Part shown: positions 2,185-24,596 of the stretch, piece by piece
How the letters are laid out: every line of letters begins with the position of its first letter
Numbering within the stretch: the stretch's first letter is position 1
Assembly: GCA_001800745.1 (NCBI GenBank)
Contig: MGVZ01000045.1
Coordinates: forward strand, 10,342-43,919
Origin: Euryarchaeota archaeon RBG_16_67_27
Lineage (GTDB): Archaea; Thermoplasmatota; Thermoplasmata; RBG-16-68-12
Direction: 5' to 3'
DNA: 33,578 nucleotides
Program-made: the position numbers and the translations under genes
The notes under the pieces: model-generated
The model's database searches: none
What the model was told of the DNA's origin: nothing
What the model saw: the letters and a program-made list of their open reading frames with translations, nothing else

Positions 2185-2669
2185 CGCTTTCGGAGCGGCC
2201 CCCGTTCCTCGGCCGGCGGTTCCCCTTCGACGTGCCTGAGCTTCTCCTGCAGCGCGAGCCACTCGCCCACCTTCCTCACGATCTTGCGCGTTCCGTCGAG
2301 GTCTCCCTCGAACTTCGGCAGACGCACCACCCGCGTGCCGAGACCCCGCCTCCCACACTCCTCGAGGATCCGGTTCTCGTCATGGGCCTGGTCGAACCCG
2401 AGCACGATGATGTCCGGCCGGACCTCCTGGAGGATCTCGTAGATGTTCCCCTCGTGCCCGAGGAGCACGCGGTCCACGGGCTTGAGGGCGGATACGATCT
2501 GGACCCTGGACGCCTCCGAGGTGATCGGCTCGTGCTTGAACTTCCGCGCGGTGCTGTCCCGTGCGACGACGACGACGAGCTCGTCACCGAGCCTGCGGGC
2601 CTCCTCGAGGAAGTAGATGTGACCGGGATGGAGGAGATCGAAGACCCCCGTCGCCATTACGCGGACCAT
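2181..2669 (-). CDS. ribL: FAD synthetase (archaeal RibL, cytidylyltransferase-like)
   Basis: MVRVMATGVFDLLHPGHIYFLEEAR... HxGH nucleotidyltransferase motif, riboflavin cluster context. Confidence 0.88.
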   Translation of the reverse strand: MVRVMATGVFDLLHPGHIYFLEEARRLGDELVVVVARDSTARKFKHEPITSEASRVQIVSALKPVDRVLLGHEGNIYEILQEVRPDIIVLGFDQAHDENRILEECGRRGLGTRVVRLPKFEGDLDGTRKIVRKVGEWLALQEKLRHVEGEPPAEERGPLRKR

Positions 2670-3355
2670 GCGCGCCACGCCTGGAGGATGTCCTGTCCTT
2701 CCAGGAACACGAGATTTCGCTCTCGCGCATATGCCTTTGCATCCTCCCGGGTCCTGGCGAGGCCGTCGTCGGACATCATCTCGCAGATCGTGGCGCTGGG
2801 GACGAGTCCCGCGATGACCATGAGGGCCGTCGTGAGCTCCGTATGCCCCCGCCGAGACGCGAGGAGGGGCTCCGCGGCGTTGAGGATCGGAACGTGTCCT
2901 GGCGAACGGAACTCGCGGGTGAACGCGGCCGCCGCCCAGCCGTTCTCGCGACCCAATGCCTCTCGCGCGAGCGCCGCGACGCGGGAGATCGTGAGGGCCC
3001 GGTCGCGGTCCGTGATCCCCGTGAACGTGTCGCGATGGTTCACCGTGATCGAGAACGCGCTGTGCCGGTCGTACCGCATGTCCTCCGTCGCGACCGCCTC
3101 GAGGAGCGGGTACGCCCTGCCGGCGGTCCGGAGGATGTCCGTCATCAGAGGCAGGCCGAGCCGCGAGTGGACCCCGCCGGACAGGGTCACGCACACCAGG
3201 CCGCCCGCATCCTTGCGGAGGGTTCGGACCGCCGGAGGGCTCACGAACTCGCTCGCGAGCGTGAGGTCCGTCTCCTCCTCCCGGCCATCACCGTCGTAGA
3301 CGAGGACGAACTCCCCGCGGCGAAGCGCCTCGACGGCCCGGACGATGTCGCCCAC
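2657..3355 (-). CDS. ribB: 3,4-dihydroxy-2-butanone 4-phosphate synthase
   Basis: RRGEFVLVYDGDGREEETDLTLASEFV...RDTFTGITDRDRALT motifs. Confidence 0.9.
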   Translation of the reverse strand: MGDIVRAVEALRRGEFVLVYDGDGREEETDLTLASEFVSPPAVRTLRKDAGGLVCVTLSGGVHSRLGLPLMTDILRTAGRAYPLLEAVATEDMRYDRHSAFSITVNHRDTFTGITDRDRALTISRVAALAREALGRENGWAAAAFTREFRSPGHVPILNAAEPLLASRRGHTELTTALMVIAGLVPSATICEMMSDDGLARTREDAKAYARERNLVFLEGQDILQAWRAWSA

Positions 3356-3436
3356 GAGAGGCCCGACGTGTCCGGCTCATATCAATGTTTTTGTAACTAC
3401 CCGATTCTCGGTTGCGAGGGTCCGGTCGGAGGCCTT

Positions 3437-4513
3437 ATGTCCGCAGGCCCGCTTCGACCCGCGTTGCTCGAGGCGTCTGCGGTCGCGAGGACGGATCCCG
3501 GGAAGATGCGGGAGATCATCGCCTCGATGCCCGAGCAGCTCCTCGAAGGCCTCCGGCGCGGGATCGGGACCCATGCGCCGCTCCAGGATGCGCGCCACGT
3601 GTTCGTCGTCGGGATGGGCGGGTCCGCGATCGCGGGGGACATCTTCCGCGCGTGGATCGCGAGCCGCTCGAAGGTCCCGATCCAGGTCGTCCGGGACTAC
3701 CGTCTTCCCTCGTACGCGCAACCGGGGGACGTCGTGGTCGCGGTGAGCTACTCCGGGGAGACGGAGGAGACGCTCGCGGCGACCGCGGACGGGATCAAGC
3801 TCGGCTGCCACCTCGTCGCAGTCACGTCGGGGGGAACCCTCGCGAGCCTCGCCCGGTCCGCAAAGGCGGACGTCGTCGAGATCCCGGGCGGCTTGCCGCC
3901 GCGGGGCGCGTTCGGCCACCTCTTTGGAATCCTCCCCGGGATAGGCGAGGACTGGGTCTACGGGGACCTCCGCGGGGAACTCGAACGCGCGGTCGTCCAC
4001 CTGAAGGGGCTCCGCGAGCGGCTCAGGCCCGACACCCCGAAATCGAGGAACCGCGCGAAGGCGCTCGCCGTGCGACTCAGGGGGAAGACCCCCGTGGTCT
4101 ACGGCGCCCCGCCCTTCACGGCGGTCGCGAAGCGCTGGCAGACCCAGCTGAACGAGAACGCGAAGGTCCTTGCCTTCTCTTCGGAGTTCCCGGAGGCGGA
4201 CCACAACGAGCTCGTCGGTTGGTGCTCCGACGGAACGTCGCGGCGGTTCGCGCCCGTCTTCCTGCGCGACTCCGACGAGACCCCGGAGATGCGCCGGCGG
4301 CTCGATGCGACCGCGGCCCTGATGGCGCGCGGCGCGAAGGTCGAGCAGCTCGAGGACGAGGATGACGAGCTCCTCGGGCGGATGCTCGGGCTCCTGTTCC
4401 TGGGCGACTACGTGAGCCTGTACCTTGCGACGCTCCGGCGCGTGGACCCCCTGCCCGTCGCGCCCATCGACGAGCTCAAGGCGCGGCTCGCACGGCGGCA
4501 CGGAAAAAGCTGA
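3437..4513 (+). CDS. bifunctional phosphoglucose/phosphomannose isomerase
   Basis: FVVGMGGSAIAGDIFRAW...VVAVSYSGETEETL...FGILPGIG...NELVGW; ATG at 3437. Confidence 0.88.
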   Translation: MSAGPLRPALLEASAVARTDPGKMREIIASMPEQLLEGLRRGIGTHAPLQDARHVFVVGMGGSAIAGDIFRAWIASRSKVPIQVVRDYRLPSYAQPGDVVVAVSYSGETEETLAATADGIKLGCHLVAVTSGGTLASLARSAKADVVEIPGGLPPRGAFGHLFGILPGIGEDWVYGDLRGELERAVVHLKGLRERLRPDTPKSRNRAKALAVRLRGKTPVVYGAPPFTAVAKRWQTQLNENAKVLAFSSEFPEADHNELVGWCSDGTSRRFAPVFLRDSDETPEMRRRLDATAALMARGAKVEQLEDEDDELLGRMLGLLFLGDYVSLYLATLRRVDPLPVAPIDELKARLARRHGKS

Positions 4514-4514
4514 A

Positions 4515-4633
4515 CGCCGAGGGGGAGACTTTCAGGCAGCCGTCATCAGAGCGGCGGGAGCCTTTTGAACTCCCGGGGCCTTGCGACCACCAGCTCTCCA
4601 AGCTGGCGCCCTACCGGACTAGGCGACCTCGGC
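4515..4633 (-). tRNA. tRNA-Ser(GGA), interrupted by a 35-nt intron in the T-loop
   Basis: Coding strand GCCGAGG|TC|GCCTAGTCCGGTAGGGC|G|CCAGC-TTGGAGA-GCTGG|class II variable arm GGTC-GCAA-GGCC|GGGAG-TTCAAA[intron]T-CTCCC|CCTCGGC|G; all arms pair, acceptor 7/7. Confidence 0.93.
4529..4563 (-). other. tRNA-Ser T-loop intron (position 59/60)
   Basis: Intron AGGCTCCCGCCGCTCTGATGACGGCTGCCTGAAAG; bulge-helix-bulge: GGGAG/CTCCC, 3' bulge AGT, central 4-bp TTCA/TGAA, 5' bulge AAA, GGC/GCC; splicing yields TTCAAAT. Confidence 0.9.
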
Positions 4634-4664
4634 ACCCAGCGCTCGCGCCATCGGCTCCGCTGTA

Positions 4665-4692
4665 ATAAAGGTTCTCCGTCAAAGGTTCTCCG
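4665..4692 (-). promoter_or_regulatory. tandem duplicated promoter-like element upstream of tRNA-Ser
   Basis: Coding strand CGGAGAACCTTTGACGGAGAACCTTTAT: two exact copies of CGGAGAACCTTT (4681-4692, 4667-4678), period 14. Confidence 0.6.
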
Positions 4693-4700
4693 CCGGGTTC

Positions 4701-5657
4701 TCACTTCCAGAGCTTCGGGTACGTGCCCGGGTCCATGAGCACGCGTGCCGTGTCCGCGGCGATGCCCGACTTCGCGACGACGACCTCGTCCGTCGTCAGG
4801 AGGGACTTCGCGAACGCGACCGCTTCTCCTTTAGCGCTGAACACGCCGACGGCTTGCCCCCGCCGGATGCCCGGGGTGAGCCGCGCGATGCCCGGGACCG
4901 CGAGGTTCGCCCCGTGGCAGATTGCGTCGACCGCCGTGTCCTTCACGACAATCTGCGGGAGGTGTGCGAGGAGCCGCTCGAAGGGCACGAGCGCCTTGCG
5001 GAGCGGCGCCTCGTCCCCCTCCTCCTTCCAGAAGGCGATCGCGTCCCGGTACGCGTTCAGCGGAAGGGCCTCCGTCTCCCGGAACGTCGCGGTGCGCGTC
5101 CTGCGCAGGTCGACCATGTTCGCCCCGACGCCGAGCGCCTCTCCGAGGTCCGCGCAGAGCGTCCGGACGTACGTGCCGGATTCGCAGCGCACGCGGAAGA
5201 GAACGTTCCTCCCCGAGATCTCAATCGCCTCGAACTCGTACACGTGACGGGACCTCCGCTCGCGCTTCACCGCCGACCGGACCGGGGGCGTCTGGTAGAC
5301 CTCCCCCACGAAGCGCCCGATCATCGTGCTCAGCCGGCGGGCGTCGACGTCCTGATGGAGCTGGAGCACGCCGACGTACTCCTTGTCCCCCTCGAGCACG
5401 GCCTCGAGCCCCCGCGTCGCGTCGGCGAGGGCGACGGGGAGCACGCCGGTGACCCGGGGATCGAGGGTGCCGGAGTGTCCTGCACGCGGCACCCCGAACA
5501 TGTCCCGCACCCAGGCGCTCACCTGGTGGGACGTCGGCCCCTGGGGCTTGTCGACGAGCGCGACGCCGAGCCGGATCGCGTCCCGGATCGCGCGCGCTTC
5601 AGGCCGGGTGCCGTGCTTCGAGTCCGGGGTGTCGTGGAGGACGACGAGCTCGGTCAT
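4701..5657 (-). CDS. truB: Cbf5/TruB-family tRNA/rRNA pseudouridine synthase
   Basis: GVALVDKPQGPTSHQVSAWVRDMFGVPRAGHSGTLDPRVTGVLPVAL... with C-terminal PUA-like region. Confidence 0.93.
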   Translation of the reverse strand: MTELVVLHDTPDSKHGTRPEARAIRDAIRLGVALVDKPQGPTSHQVSAWVRDMFGVPRAGHSGTLDPRVTGVLPVALADATRGLEAVLEGDKEYVGVLQLHQDVDARRLSTMIGRFVGEVYQTPPVRSAVKRERRSRHVYEFEAIEISGRNVLFRVRCESGTYVRTLCADLGEALGVGANMVDLRRTRTATFRETEALPLNAYRDAIAFWKEEGDEAPLRKALVPFERLLAHLPQIVVKDTAVDAICHGANLAVPGIARLTPGIRRGQAVGVFSAKGEAVAFAKSLLTTDEVVVAKSGIAADTARVLMDPGTYPKLWK

Positions 5658-6193
5658 CCTGCCACCCGCGCGAGGATGGTCTCGACGATTCGCTCGGGGG
5701 TCTTTTCGGAGGAATCGACGACGAGGTCGTACACGCCGCGGTCGTCGAGGTCGATGCCGTAGACCTCCCGGTACCGGGTCCGCTCGGACCGCTCCCTCAC
5801 CTCGATCTCGTGGCGCGCGGCAGCGGCGCTCCCGCGTTCCCGTTCCTCGACGCGCCGCGCCCGGACATCGACGGGTGCGTCGATCCAGACCTTGAGGCAC
5901 GGGATCCGCCGCTGGGACAGGAGGTATGCCTGGATCCTCCCGTCGACAACGATGTCGTCGCCCATCGCGTCCCGACGGAGGACCTCCTCGAGGACGAGGC
6001 GGTCGAGCTCCCGGTCGATTCCGGGGTCGGCCTCCGCGGCCCGGGAGAACGCAAGGATGTCCATGCCCCGGGCCTTCGCCATCTCCCGGAATCGTGCGCC
6101 GGCGGACACGAGGGCGTAGCCGAAGCCCTCCGCGAGGCGCTCCGCGACCGTCGTCTTCCCGCTTCCAGGAGGACCGCCGATCGCGATGATCAT
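5654..6193 (-). CDS. cmk: cytidylate kinase
   Basis: MIIAIGGPPGSGKTTVAERLAEGFGY P-loop; archaeal CMK size and synteny with cbf5 and EMC3. Confidence 0.88.
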   Translation of the reverse strand: MIIAIGGPPGSGKTTVAERLAEGFGYALVSAGARFREMAKARGMDILAFSRAAEADPGIDRELDRLVLEEVLRRDAMGDDIVVDGRIQAYLLSQRRIPCLKVWIDAPVDVRARRVEERERGSAAAARHEIEVRERSERTRYREVYGIDLDDRGVYDLVVDSSEKTPERIVETILARVAG

Positions 6194-6202
6194 CCGGACC
6201 CC

Positions 6203-6934
6203 TCAGGCCCGGTCCGGCTCCGCACGGAGGGGTAGCCCCATCTCGCGGAGGCGACGGCGGAAGCGGACGTACTTCATCACGCGGGAGACGATCTGCCCGA
6301 AGGGGATCGCGAGGAGCGAGTAGAGGAGGACCCAGGACGGGAACACGTAGATCGACGGCAGCCACACGTTCGAGGACCACGGGACCGCGATGAACTGGTT
6401 CCCGTTCGCCGACAGGGAGAAGTCGACGAACGTCCGGAGCCAGCTGAACATGACGATGAACACGAACATCGTGAGGGCCATCGACTTGTATGGCGAGAAC
6501 ATGAGGGCCATCTGGTCCTGCTGGAACCCCTTCTGCGCCTCCATGAGCTGCTCGAGCCGCGCCTTGTTCCCCTTCCGGACCGCGTCCATCCGCTCCCTGC
6601 TCCACGCGCGCATGATCTTCTGCGTCCGCGCCTGCCGGACCCAGTTCGTGAAGTAGTCCCGGACGATCGACGAGAGGGTCGTCGTGAACATCCCCGCGAG
6701 GAGGATCGTGATCACGGGGATCGCCGCGTTGAACCCCAGGAGGGGCGTGAGAACCGCACTCGCCGCGTTGCCGGCGATCTGTGCGAGCTGCGGGTCGAAG
6801 AGCGTCCAGAACGCGAGGAGGAAGAGGAAGATCATGACGAACCGAGAGAGGCTCCCCTTCGGCATCGCGGGGGCGCGGGGGGCGGAGGGCTCCGCTGCGT
6901 CGGGTCCGTCCGGGGTCTCCGAGGCGTCGGCCAC
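6203..6934 (-). CDS. EMC3/TMCO1 (DUF106) Oxa1-superfamily membrane protein
   Basis: Three hydrophobic segments and RDYFTNWVRQARTQKIMRAWSRERMDAVRKG coiled region; cmk neighbourhood. Confidence 0.8.
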   Translation of the reverse strand: MADASETPDGPDAAEPSAPRAPAMPKGSLSRFVMIFLFLLAFWTLFDPQLAQIAGNAASAVLTPLLGFNAAIPVITILLAGMFTTTLSSIVRDYFTNWVRQARTQKIMRAWSRERMDAVRKGNKARLEQLMEAQKGFQQDQMALMFSPYKSMALTMFVFIVMFSWLRTFVDFSLSANGNQFIAVPWSSNVWLPSIYVFPSWVLLYSLLAIPFGQIVSRVMKYVRFRRRLREMGLPLRAEPDRA

Positions 6935-6978
6935 GCACTGACGAAAGGGCCTTTCGATATAAGGATTTCCAGGCCGAC

Positions 6979-7344
6979 TCAGCCGGCCTGGGGAGCCGCC
7001 GCACCGCCCAGCGCCTGCTGGATTCTCTCCCCGAGCTGCTCGTAGCGCTCCGTGAGCGCCTTCTCCTGCTTCTGGATCGACTTCACGCGAATCGTGATGG
7101 TCTCCTTGTGCTCGTCGAGCTCCTCCTTGAGGCCCTTGCGGTCGTCGCTCTTCACCAGGAGCATCCCGATGCTCTTGTAGATCGTCGTGTCGGGCCCGAC
7201 CTTCCCGAGCTCGTCGAGGGTCCCCTCGACTTCGCGGAGCTTCGCCTCGAGCTGGAGCCGCTGGGAGGCGAGGACCTGGATCTGCTGCTGCAACTGCTGG
7301 TACTGGGCGATCTGGTTCTGCAACTGGGGGGAAATCTCCTTCAT
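6979..7344 (-). CDS. pfdB: prefoldin beta subunit
   Basis: MKEISPQLQNQIAQYQQLQQQIQVLASQRLQLEAKLREVEGTLDEL...VYKSIG-like IYKSIGMLLVK. Confidence 0.9.
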   Translation of the reverse strand: MKEISPQLQNQIAQYQQLQQQIQVLASQRLQLEAKLREVEGTLDELGKVGPDTTIYKSIGMLLVKSDDRKGLKEELDEHKETITIRVKSIQKQEKALTERYEQLGERIQQALGGAAAPQAG

Positions 7345-18142: not shown

Positions 18143-19087
18143 ATGGCCGACCCATTCGGCACCGCAATCGTCCGATGCCTCGCGCGAATCCCCCGGGGTC
18201 GGGTCACGACCTGCGGAGCGATCGCACGGGCCCTCGGGGACGTCCGTGCGGCGCGAGCCGTGGCGGCCTGGATCCTCGACCATCCGACGAGGAACGGGCA
18301 CCGGGTCGTGCGCGGGGACGGGACGCCGATCCGCCGGGACGCGGGAGCGCGGTTGCGGGACGACGGCGTCACGCTCCGCGGCGGGCGCGCGAGCGGCTCC
18401 CGATTCGCGGATCCCCTTCCGGCCGTCGGATTGCTCGCGGCGCTCCGAGCGGAGCAAATCCGCCTCGCAGGCCAGGTCCTCGAAGCGGACGAGCCGGCGC
18501 CGCCAGAGACCGTCGCGGGGGTGGACGCGAGCTACGCCGGCGATTCCGCGTTCGCCGCAGCCGCCGTGTACGGGATCGACGATCTCGATCTGAGGGAGAC
18601 CGCGACGGTCCGGATGCCCGTCGACTTCCCGTACATCCCCACATACCTGGGCTACCGGGAGCTGCCCCCCATCGCGGCCGCGCTCGCCAGGCTCTCACGA
18701 CGTCCGGACATGGTCCTCATCGATGGACACGGGCGTCTCCATCCTGCTCGGTTTGGCGTCGCGTGCTTCGCCGGCGTCCAACTTGGCCTCCGGACGATCG
18801 GCGTCGCGAAACACCCGCTCGCGGGCTCACCGCGACGCCAAGATCGGGGGCGCGCAGACGCGGTTCCGATCGACCTCGACGGGCAGCTCGCGGGGTTCGC
18901 ATGGACGCCTCCCCAAGGCACTCGGCCCCTGTACGTCTCCGTGGGCCACCGGGTCTCTCTCGAGAGCGCGCTCGACCTCGTTCGGCGGACGACGAAGGAA
19001 CGCATGCCGGAGCCGTTGAAGAGCGCGGACCGGATTGCACGAGAAATGAAAGGGAAGGAAAAACGGGAAAGGGGTTCAGAACGGTGA
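18143..19087 (+). CDS. fusion: alkyltransferase-like (AGT/ATL) HTH domain + endonuclease V
   Basis: N-term IPRGRVTTCGAIARALGDVRAARAVAAWILDHPTRNGHRVVRGDG (AGT-type, PCHRV position reads NGHRV); C-term VAGVDASY...FPYIPTYLGYRELPP...DGHGRLHPARFGVA...IGVAKHPL (EndoV). Confidence 0.88.
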   Translation: MADPFGTAIVRCLARIPRGRVTTCGAIARALGDVRAARAVAAWILDHPTRNGHRVVRGDGTPIRRDAGARLRDDGVTLRGGRASGSRFADPLPAVGLLAALRAEQIRLAGQVLEADEPAPPETVAGVDASYAGDSAFAAAAVYGIDDLDLRETATVRMPVDFPYIPTYLGYRELPPIAAALARLSRRPDMVLIDGHGRLHPARFGVACFAGVQLGLRTIGVAKHPLAGSPRRQDRGRADAVPIDLDGQLAGFAWTPPQGTRPLYVSVGHRVSLESALDLVRRTTKERMPEPLKSADRIAREMKGKEKRERGSER

Positions 19088-22352: not shown

Positions 22353-23501
22353 ATGAAGCGGCTCAAGGTCCAGGACCTCACGGTATCCGCTTTCATGACG
22401 AGGGAAGTCGTCACGGCGACCCCGAGCGAGACAATCGGCGACGTGCTCGGGAAGATGAAGAAGCACGACGTCCACGAGGTGCCCATCCTCGACAAGAAGC
22501 GCATCGAGGGCGTCGTGACGATGCGGGAGCTCATGAAGCGGCGGAACCTCCCGCCCTCGACGAAAGCCTCCACGGTGATGCTCGGCGGTCCCGAGCTCGC
22601 GGAGGACACGCCCCTGCCGGAGGCCGCGGAGACGATGCTCTCGAGTGGATTCCGCACCCTCCCCATCCTGAAGAAGAAGACTCTCGCGGGGGTGATTTCG
22701 CGGACGGACCTCGTGCGTGCCCTCGTCGAGACGGAGGCCCTCGCCTCCCTGAAGGTTCGCGACCTCATGACCCCGAACCCCCAGTGCGTCGGCGAGTCGG
22801 ACACCGTCGACCACGCGGTGAAACTCATGCAGTCCCTCGGGGAGCGGTCGATCCCGGTCGTGGACCGGAACCGGCATCTCGAAGGCGTCGTCGGGCTCAA
22901 GGACCTCGCCGAGTTCTTCGCACGACCGAAGACCCGCGAGCGGTACGGGGATCGTGCCGGCCGCGAGGAGAGGGTCGCGATCGAGGTCAAAGGCGTCATG
23001 CGCTATCCGCCGGTCATGGTCGGCCCCGAGGCGGACGTGCACCGCGCCGCGGAACTCATGCTCCGGCACAACGTCTCGAGCGTGATCGTCGTGGACAAGG
23101 ACGAGCCGGTCGGGATCCTCACGAAGGCCGACCTCATGCACGTCCTCGCGGGATTCCAGGAGCGCGAGCAGCTGTTCGTCGAGGTCAGCGGGCTCGAGGA
23201 CGAACCCACTGACGCCTACGACGCGATGTATGCAACGATCCAGAAGGAGATGAAGAAGATCGCCGAGCTCACGACTCCACGGACCCTGTCCCTGCACGTG
23301 CAGAAGTACAAACCCGACGGCGACCGGTGGAAATACTCCCTCCGGTGCCGCTTCGCGACGGCCCACGACATGTACTACGCGCACCACTTCGACTGGGACC
23401 TCAACCTCGCGCTCGGCGCGCTCCTGGAAGGCCTGTACCGGCGCATCGTGAAGGAGAAGGAGCGCAAGATCACCGAGAAGAAGCGCCACCACTCAGCGTA
23501 G
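22353..23501 (+). CDS. four-CBS-domain protein with C-terminal HPF/S30AE-like region
   Basis: Repeated CBS signatures (MTREVVTATPSETIGDVLGKMKKHDVHEVPILD; LMTPNPQCVGESDTVDHAV...), then RTLSLHVQKYKPDGDRWKYSLRCRFATAHDMYYAHHFDWDLNLALGALLEGLYRRIVKEKER. Confidence 0.82.
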   Translation: MKRLKVQDLTVSAFMTREVVTATPSETIGDVLGKMKKHDVHEVPILDKKRIEGVVTMRELMKRRNLPPSTKASTVMLGGPELAEDTPLPEAAETMLSSGFRTLPILKKKTLAGVISRTDLVRALVETEALASLKVRDLMTPNPQCVGESDTVDHAVKLMQSLGERSIPVVDRNRHLEGVVGLKDLAEFFARPKTRERYGDRAGREERVAIEVKGVMRYPPVMVGPEADVHRAAELMLRHNVSSVIVVDKDEPVGILTKADLMHVLAGFQEREQLFVEVSGLEDEPTDAYDAMYATIQKEMKKIAELTTPRTLSLHVQKYKPDGDRWKYSLRCRFATAHDMYYAHHFDWDLNLALGALLEGLYRRIVKEKERKITEKKRHHSA

Positions 23502-24512
23502 GTTCCAGAACGCCTCGTGCGCGCGCCTCGTCGCGGCGATCGCGGACCCCCCACTCCCTTTCGAGTCGATGTGCTGCGTGAGCTCGAGGTCGATCCGGGT
23601 GCCGCGGAGACGGGCGACGGTCCCCACGAAGACCTCCGCGAGAGCCTGGAGGTGGTAGCCGCCCTCGAGGGCAACGACGAAGCGGTCGCCGCACACCTCG
23701 TGGGCGACCTCGGCGCTCCGCGCGACGAGGTCCACGTAGCCGGGAGACGAGAGGGCGAGGGAGGTGAGGGGGTCGCGGTAGTGCGCGTCGACCCCGAGGC
23801 TCACGAGGATCGCGTCCGGGCGGTACGCGCGGACGATCGGCTCGACGAGCTCTTGGAAGGCAGCCTCGTACGACGCGTCCCCGCAGCCCGCGCCGAACGG
23901 GATGTTCACGTTGAACCCGCGGCCCTCGCCCACGCCGACGTCCTCCGCCGCCCCCGTGCCCGGATAGATCCCGTACTGGTGGGTCGAGACGTAGAGCACG
24001 GTCGCCTCATCCGCGAAGATGTCGCTCGTTCCGTTGCCATGGTGGGCGTCGTAATCGAGGATCGCGACACGCTTGCCCTTCCCGACGAGGTCCGCGGCGG
24101 CCACAGCGACGTTGTTCAGGTAGCAGAAGCCCCCGCCGTAGTCGGGCCCCGCATGGTGACCCGGCGGACGGACAAGGGCGATCGCGGGCTTGCCTTCCGC
24201 CAGGGACCACCGCGCGGCCTGGAGGGTCGCCCCCGCGGCGAGGAGCGCGACCTCGAATGTCCCGGGATGCACGGCGGTCTCCGGGTCGAGGAACCCGTCC
24301 CCGAGGGTCCGGAAGAACTCGAGGAACGGTTCTCGGTGGACCCGCCTGACCTCCGCAGGGGTCGCGGGAACGGGCCTCGCGACGTCCGTGAAGAGACCTT
24401 CCTTCCGAAGCCGCGCGACGATCGCCTCGAGCCGTTCCGGGCGCTCGACATGGAGGGGGGAGGCGACGTGCTCGACGAACCTGGGGTCGTAGACGAGCAC
24501 GGGCCCACGCAT
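23493..24512 (-). CDS. histone deacetylase-superfamily (AcuC/class II-like) deacetylase
   Basis: SPLHVERPERLEAI...VRPPGHHAG...GFCYLNNVAVAA...ILDYDAHHGNGTSDIF...VSLGVDAHYRDPLTSL...ALEGGYHLQALAE. Confidence 0.92.
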   Translation of the reverse strand: MRGPVLVYDPRFVEHVASPLHVERPERLEAIVARLRKEGLFTDVARPVPATPAEVRRVHREPFLEFFRTLGDGFLDPETAVHPGTFEVALLAAGATLQAARWSLAEGKPAIALVRPPGHHAGPDYGGGFCYLNNVAVAAADLVGKGKRVAILDYDAHHGNGTSDIFADEATVLYVSTHQYGIYPGTGAAEDVGVGEGRGFNVNIPFGAGCGDASYEAAFQELVEPIVRAYRPDAILVSLGVDAHYRDPLTSLALSSPGYVDLVARSAEVAHEVCGDRFVVALEGGYHLQALAEVFVGTVARLRGTRIDLELTQHIDSKGSGGSAIAATRRAHEAFWNLR

Positions 24513-24586
24513 GACCGCGCGGGACTTCAACCCATCGACTCGCAGACAGATGTCCGACGTGGCTCCCGGGAGGGACCGCATAAAAA

Positions 24587-24596
24587 TCACCGGTGA
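24587..24596. promoter_or_regulatory. palindrome TCACCGGTGA in the HDAC/PKD divergent intergenic region
   Basis: Perfect 10-bp palindrome in AAAATCACCGGTGAAAATCACCCGG, next to an A/T-rich box for the minus-strand gene. Confidence 0.45.

Follow-up and report, generated by a model that had tools for sequence, protein, structure and literature searches.

The soil archaeon examined here, a member of the Thermoplasmata, carries a serine tRNA gene for UCC/UCU codons that is interrupted in its T-loop by a 35-nt intron. We consider it very probable that this is the working tRNA-Ser(GGA) gene of the organism, interrupted between nucleotides 59 and 60 by an archaeal bulge-helix-bulge (BHB) intron that would be spliced out of the transcript. 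A BHB intron at 59/60 is a known kind from other archaea: such noncanonical introns have been described in tRNAs of Crenarchaeota (Thermoproteales) and Nanoarchaeota (PMC4090602), and noncanonical or multiple introns are also listed for Nanoarchaeota, Korarchaeum, Methanopyrus, Methanothermobacter and ARMAN (PMC4090602, PMC4033280); euryarchaeal introns have been reviewed as single and canonical in position (PMC4090602). An earlier note on this DNA had taken the genome for euryarchaeal, which its placement in the class Thermoplasmata bears out, and had described noncanonical introns as mainly known from Thermoproteales-type crenarchaea. This statement is right as far as it goes, and incomplete, as more archaeal groups are named in the reviews and more T-loop introns were found in the present analysis. 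As far as the literature searched shows, neither the combination of an alpha'2 endonuclease with a T-loop intron in Thermoplasmata nor in-place allele swaps at such a locus have been described; no paper on noncanonical introns of Thermoplasmatota or of Woesearchaeota came up in the search, which left most subscription journals outside its coverage.

The gene and its predicted splice junction

The gene lies on the minus strand of the window (the whole stretch of 33,578 nucleotides that was analysed) and reads from 4633 down to 4515. On that strand, the acceptor strand GCCGAGG is followed by the D arm, the anticodon arm CCAGC-TTGGAGA-GCTGG, the variable arm and GGGAG-TTCAAA^[35 nt]^T-CTCCC-CCTCGGC-G. 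The 5' exon (4564..4633, 70 nt) runs from acceptor G1 to T-loop position 59, as delimited by the sequence and by alignment with intronless orthologues; the intron AGGCTCCCGCCGCTCTGATGACGGCTGCCTGAAAG occupies 4529..4563; and the 3' exon (4515..4528, 14 nt) comprises T60, the T-stem strand CTCCC, the acceptor strand CCTCGGC and the discriminator G73. The insertion site is thus between T-loop nucleotides 59 and 60, away from 37/38.

The junction reads GGGAG-TTCA-AA^A-GGC......GCC-TGAA-AG^T-CTCCC, which is a strict hBHBh' motif with two 3-nt bulges, a 4-bp central helix and both outer and inner helices. The 5' strand of the T-stem, GGGAG (4570..4574, partner 4523-4527), doubles as the outer helix and is 100% paired in eight distinct sequences. 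The central helix is formed by TTCA (4566..4569, T-loop nt 54-57) with TGAA at 4531-4534, where the TGGA of relatives still pairs, and the inner helix by GGC (4560..4562) with GCC at 4535-4537. The predicted cuts fall between 4564 and 4563 in the 5' bulge AAA (4563..4565), and between 4529 and 4528 in the 3' bulge AGT (4528..4530). The helix and bulge lengths given in the earlier note match exactly once read on the minus strand, a strand that it had left unnamed.

Removal of the 35 nt from 4563 to 4529 yields an 84-nt class II tRNA-Ser(GGA) that ARAGORN reports as perfect and that RNAfold likewise folds into a cloverleaf, with acceptor, D, anticodon, variable and T arms all full; this agrees with the earlier claim that the arms pair only after these nucleotides are taken out. 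The same note had warned that standard scans may mishandle the gene, as indeed they do: the Rfam tRNA model gives the unspliced gene 25.4 bits against a cut-off of 29 (intronless orthologues score 55-58 bits), and ARAGORN calls a malformed tRNA at 4547-4630, taking the T-stem from the CTCCC inside the intron. In the free unspliced RNA, the BHB fold lies 2.3 kcal/mol above the minimum, with near-isoenergetic alternatives, and the second CTCCC in the intron is able to pair with the T-stem. The corresponding gap is 0.3-2.8 kcal/mol in the other T-loop-intron orthologues that were folded (G016, G011, G002 and G024), and in the Thermoplasmata genome JOPF135 the BHB fold is the minimum itself. These gaps fall within the error of the predictions, and the enzyme could capture the BHB motif from such an ensemble.

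The short BHB core was dropped as a stand-alone detector. The pattern GTTCRAA...TGRANNNC matches 18 sites in the genome, most of them random, and is therefore not diagnostic alone; only one of the 18, the locus described here, falls in a tRNA T-loop with a closing T-stem. Fluoride riboswitch and miRNA matches from a permissive Rfam scan were likewise discarded, being at chance level.

A probable TATA box, CTTTATTA (4663..4670, minus strand), precedes the 5' end of the tRNA by about 30 nt and is named as such from its position and its conservation; the CTTTATA/CTTTATTA element is kept in front of the orthologues. Directly upstream of the tRNA lies an ORF (4701..7004, minus strand) whose C-terminal half is a pseudouridine synthase of the Cbf5/TruB type (Pfam TruB_N, PUA and DKCLD at residues 461-756). 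On the other side, a convergent ORF for a SIS-domain phosphosugar isomerase (2561..4513, plus strand; Pfam PF10432 and PF01380), whose true start is probably internal, ends two bases from the tRNA 3' end and is a conserved downstream neighbour of the locus, found also in G014. Farther along the window, an ORF at 18143-19087 (plus strand) fuses a methylguanine-DNA-methyltransferase-type DNA-binding domain to endonuclease V, and another at 23493-24590 (minus strand) encodes a protein of the histone-deacetylase family (PF00850).

Conservation and alternative readings

A BLAST search of 60 relatives recovered the gene, with this intron, from eight congeners at 91-98% identity (nine genomes of the genus counting the host) and from G024, which belongs to another family of the same order, at 83% identity. 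Three further genomes of the order (G025, G029 and G030; loci L040-L042) have the same tRNA without the intron. There the junction reads TTCAAATCTCCC, and query positions 1-71 are joined straight to 107-120, omitting exactly the predicted intron at 72-106; orthologues are thus continuous at the very sites where, according to the earlier note, cutting after the second nucleotide of each bulge would restore the T-loop. The intron is more than chance: among random 35-nt inserts with a similar composition, about 0.07% form a strict BHB when the splice sites are fixed, the exact empty site is present in three genomes, and nine other genomes retain the insert. Each of the eight distinct intron-bearing sequences has standard pairs at all 19 of the acceptor, T-stem and BHB positions tested, and standard pairing amounts to 100% in register versus 46-59% when the partner is slid by 1-3 columns. 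In G024 an inner-helix pair has changed from C-G to A-U, a compensatory change that gives GGA/TCC, and one U-A pair has become U-G among the relatives; covariation within the family is consistent with the BHB, but thin. Variable columns number 2 of 72 in the exons outside the variable arm and 22 of 37 in the intron.

The interrupted gene could in principle be a decayed copy, with a working tRNA-Ser(GGA) encoded in the missing part of the genome, and we hold this to be very unlikely. The assembly is 75% complete, and debris of the same gene does occur in the sister species G006, G010, G012, G013 and G014, both of which lend the idea some credit. However, the exons hardly vary and keep all their pairs in nine species, and the species with true debris all have another tRNA-Ser(GGA) at the locus, whereas those with the T-loop intron do not. 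The earlier note had proposed looking for an intact tRNA-Ser(GGA) elsewhere in the genome; a tRNA search of this assembly found none, the other serine tRNAs being GCT and TGA. Sole-copy status argued from this assembly by itself is weak; the T-loop-intron gene is also the only tRNA-Ser(GGA) seen in the congeners G003 (98% complete) and G011 (94% complete).

That there is no intron at all, and that the gene is the one ARAGORN places at 4547-4630 with its T-stem closed by the 'intronic' CTCCC, is extremely improbable. The program does report it, and CTCCCG in the intron is complementary to CGGGAG; the T-loop of this gene would nevertheless be 9 nt long and its acceptor stem broken, and the call was rejected on those grounds. 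Besides, the intronless orthologues use the distal CTCCCCCTCGGCG, and in G024 and in JOPF135 (= G379) ARAGORN detects no tRNA until the intron is removed. It is also extremely unlikely that the intron doubles as a C/D-box guide RNA, as the tRNA-Trp intron of some Euryarchaeota does. The host intron contains CTGATGA and CTGA (UGAUGA and CUGA), but the C-box-like motif is lost in relatives (UAAUGA, GGGCGA, UGACGA, UGGUGA), the boxes stand 7 nt apart, too short for a guide, and the CUGA belongs to the BHB helix. Conserved C/D and C'/D' boxes with a guide between them were not found, and a nested C/D-box sRNA was accordingly set aside.

As to the origin of the BHB intron, its start, T/A-GG-CTCCC, echoes the 3' exon, which hints that it may have arisen by duplication of the 3' end of a tRNA. 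In G052 (L043) and G039 (L049), an intact tRNA-Ser(GGA) is followed some 50 nt downstream by a further copy of the tRNA 3' end, CTCCCCCTCGGCG, which resembles an integration scar.

Splicing machinery and proposed pathway

In the 40 relatives with a match, two PF01974 domains sit in one open frame (the first weakly matched in G039), and the endonuclease is present in all 18 other genus members searched. The host's own 75%-complete assembly gave no endonuclease match, and the gene presumably sits in the missing quarter. The G003 protein is a single 348-aa chain that aligns end to end with the Archaeoglobus fulgidus alpha'2 enzyme (1r0v/2gjw) and with the Methanopyrus chain 5x89, and the motifs FRAYEG, HHAKY and VKK are confined, by eye, to the C-terminal half of the relatives' enzyme. 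ARMAN-2 epsilon2 aligns with it only as three separate pieces, and the insert that precedes the ARMAN-2 catalytic core is absent from G003. Because of the end-to-end alignment and the missing insert, the relatives' endonuclease is classed from sequence as alpha'2-type, fused and two-domain, without the ARMAN-type loop; the alternative epsilon2 (ARMAN) assignment, with its three units alphaN-alpha-betaC and ARMAN-specific loop, was discarded. Enzymes of the alpha4 and alpha'2 types are described as narrow, cutting canonical BHB motifs (PMC6379350, PMC4033280). Archaeal endonucleases recognise the BHB motif without the tRNA body, and the homodimeric endonuclease of Ferroplasma, another Thermoplasmata archaeon, cuts minimal BHBs (PMC8707768). 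The T-arm BHB described here, odd in position and strict in motif, fits a narrow-type alpha'2 enzyme.

The tRNA-splicing ligase RtcB is encoded in the host genome. Its gene (L140/L141, G000:C25:14646-17441) is broken in frame by an intein-like segment of about 480 codons, from CLEGDSQVL to SNC, and so the ligase would itself need protein splicing.

The proposed pathway would begin with transcription from the CTTTATTA box and folding of the pre-tRNA with its T-stem as the outer helix of the strict BHB, the T-loop UUCA pairing with UGAA at the 3' end of the intron. The alpha'2-type endonuclease of the lineage would cleave each 3-nt bulge on the 3' side of its second nucleotide. Ligation of the exons by RtcB would then restore the T-loop UUCAAAU across the predicted exon junction GGGAGTTCAAA^TCTCCC. 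T-loop modification and formation of the elbow would have to come after splicing.

Other T-loop introns and probable allele replacement

When 85,462 genomes were scanned with a pattern for T-loop introns that have this T-stem, 17 loci came back, in this group, JOPF135, six Woesearchaeota, one Heimdallarchaeota and one Aenigmatarchaeota; the pattern demanded TTCRAA and TGRA, so that the scan under-counts and its hits are unusable as evidence of covariation. Removal of the intron yields a full-armed tRNA in the Thermoplasmata and Woesearchaeota cases, where a second intron often confuses the ARAGORN anticodon call, and gives no full-armed tRNA in the Heimdallarchaeota and Aenigmatarchaeota ones, which stand as candidates. 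A looser pattern applied to 400 genomes of the class produced 20 matches, 12 of them tRNAs by inspection: nine of the genus, G024, JOPF135 and a tRNA-Cys in G060. JOPF135, a Thermoplasmata MAG, has an unrelated T-loop intron in tRNA-Ser(GGA), and G060, from another Thermoplasmata family, an unrelated 32-nt one in tRNA-Cys(GCA) (L107, G060:C1:5002876-5002922). These two introns and those of the woesearchaeal tRNA-Ser(GCT) share with the host intron both the site and the TTCA/TGAA central helix, but differ from it in sequence. Unlike the host gene, most of the Woesearchaeota cases also have a second intron in the anticodon loop together with a single-domain alpha endonuclease, of which each of these genomes has one. 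In a separate tRNA (L018 1501-1599, G000:C23:6239-6337) with the anticodon loop CTTATAA (UAU, Ile), the anticodon and T arms stand about 25 nt farther apart than usual, which may reflect a noncanonical intron in the variable loop or else a long variable arm; 24 genomes yielded no close relative of it.

Within the genus, eight other members (G006, G007, G010, G012, G013, G014, G015 and G017) instead have a tRNA-Ser(GGA) with an intron at 37/38, as do G019 and G021 of the sister genus, and both intact forms together were seen in no genome searched. The swapped gene stands behind the same promoter-like upstream element in most of the 37/38-form genomes, and the same isomerase gene adjoins it in G006, G010, G012 and G014. 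In G006 (L127), G010 (L130), G012 (L129), G013 (L133) and G021 (L131), a decayed 5' half of a tRNA-Ser precedes the new gene by about 40-60 nt; in G014 (L132), a decayed 3' half that retains most of the T-loop intron lies about 270 nt downstream of the new gene. These remnants imply, as read from sequence, repeated in-place replacement of the T-loop-intron gene by the 37/38-intron gene. The endonuclease tree places the T-loop form at the base of the genus, and its well-supported branches require a minimum of three state changes over the whole tree, which means at least two, probably three, replacements within the genus. We lean, with some reserve, towards a single tRNA-Ser(GGA) locus that switches repeatedly between two disrupted alleles, the older T-loop form having been overwritten in place at least twice, and probably three or more times, by the 37/38 form, with 5' or 3' stumps left behind.

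The tRNA-Thr(GGU) locus of Caldiarchaeum subterraneum is similar in that an old tRNA fragment adjoins a new tRNA of different intron content and in that the locus varies between relatives (PMC3293823). The pieces there are separated by a 1.8-kb recombinase-bearing insert (PMC3293823), whereas the spacer here is about 40-270 nt and a search around the locus in 13 genomes turned up no PF00589 tyrosine recombinase. The host intron resembles the crenarchaeal and nanoarchaeal 59/60 introns in position, BHB junction, short length and presumed endonuclease/ligase pathway; it differs from them in that it occurs in Thermoplasmata, with a fused alpha'2 endonuclease rather than (alpha-beta)2 or epsilon2, and in that its motif is strict and not relaxed. 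Korarchaeum likewise combines a fused two-domain endonuclease with noncanonical intron positions, but its enzyme reportedly has the loop specific to broad enzymes, whereas that of this clade, when compared with ARMAN-2, aligns without the insertion present there.

On the practical side, gene finders miss or mis-call such tRNAs, and the tRNA sets of Thermoplasmata MAGs, and by the same pattern those of Woesearchaeota MAGs, may be undercounted. Between them, the sister species preserve what is rarely available, namely a tRNA gene before, during and after a change in the place of its intron. If the repeated switching is real, tRNA intron position can shift by gene replacement, perhaps through elements integrating at the locus, and a narrow alpha'2 endonuclease tolerates introns anywhere, given a strict motif. 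Reviews link noncanonical tRNA introns to broad-specificity endonucleases, and euryarchaea with alpha4 or alpha'2 enzymes are said to keep introns only at 37/38; this clade uncouples the two, joining an unusual intron position to a strict motif and a narrow-type enzyme, and raises the hypothesis that it is the motif, and not the position, that limits narrow-type endonucleases.
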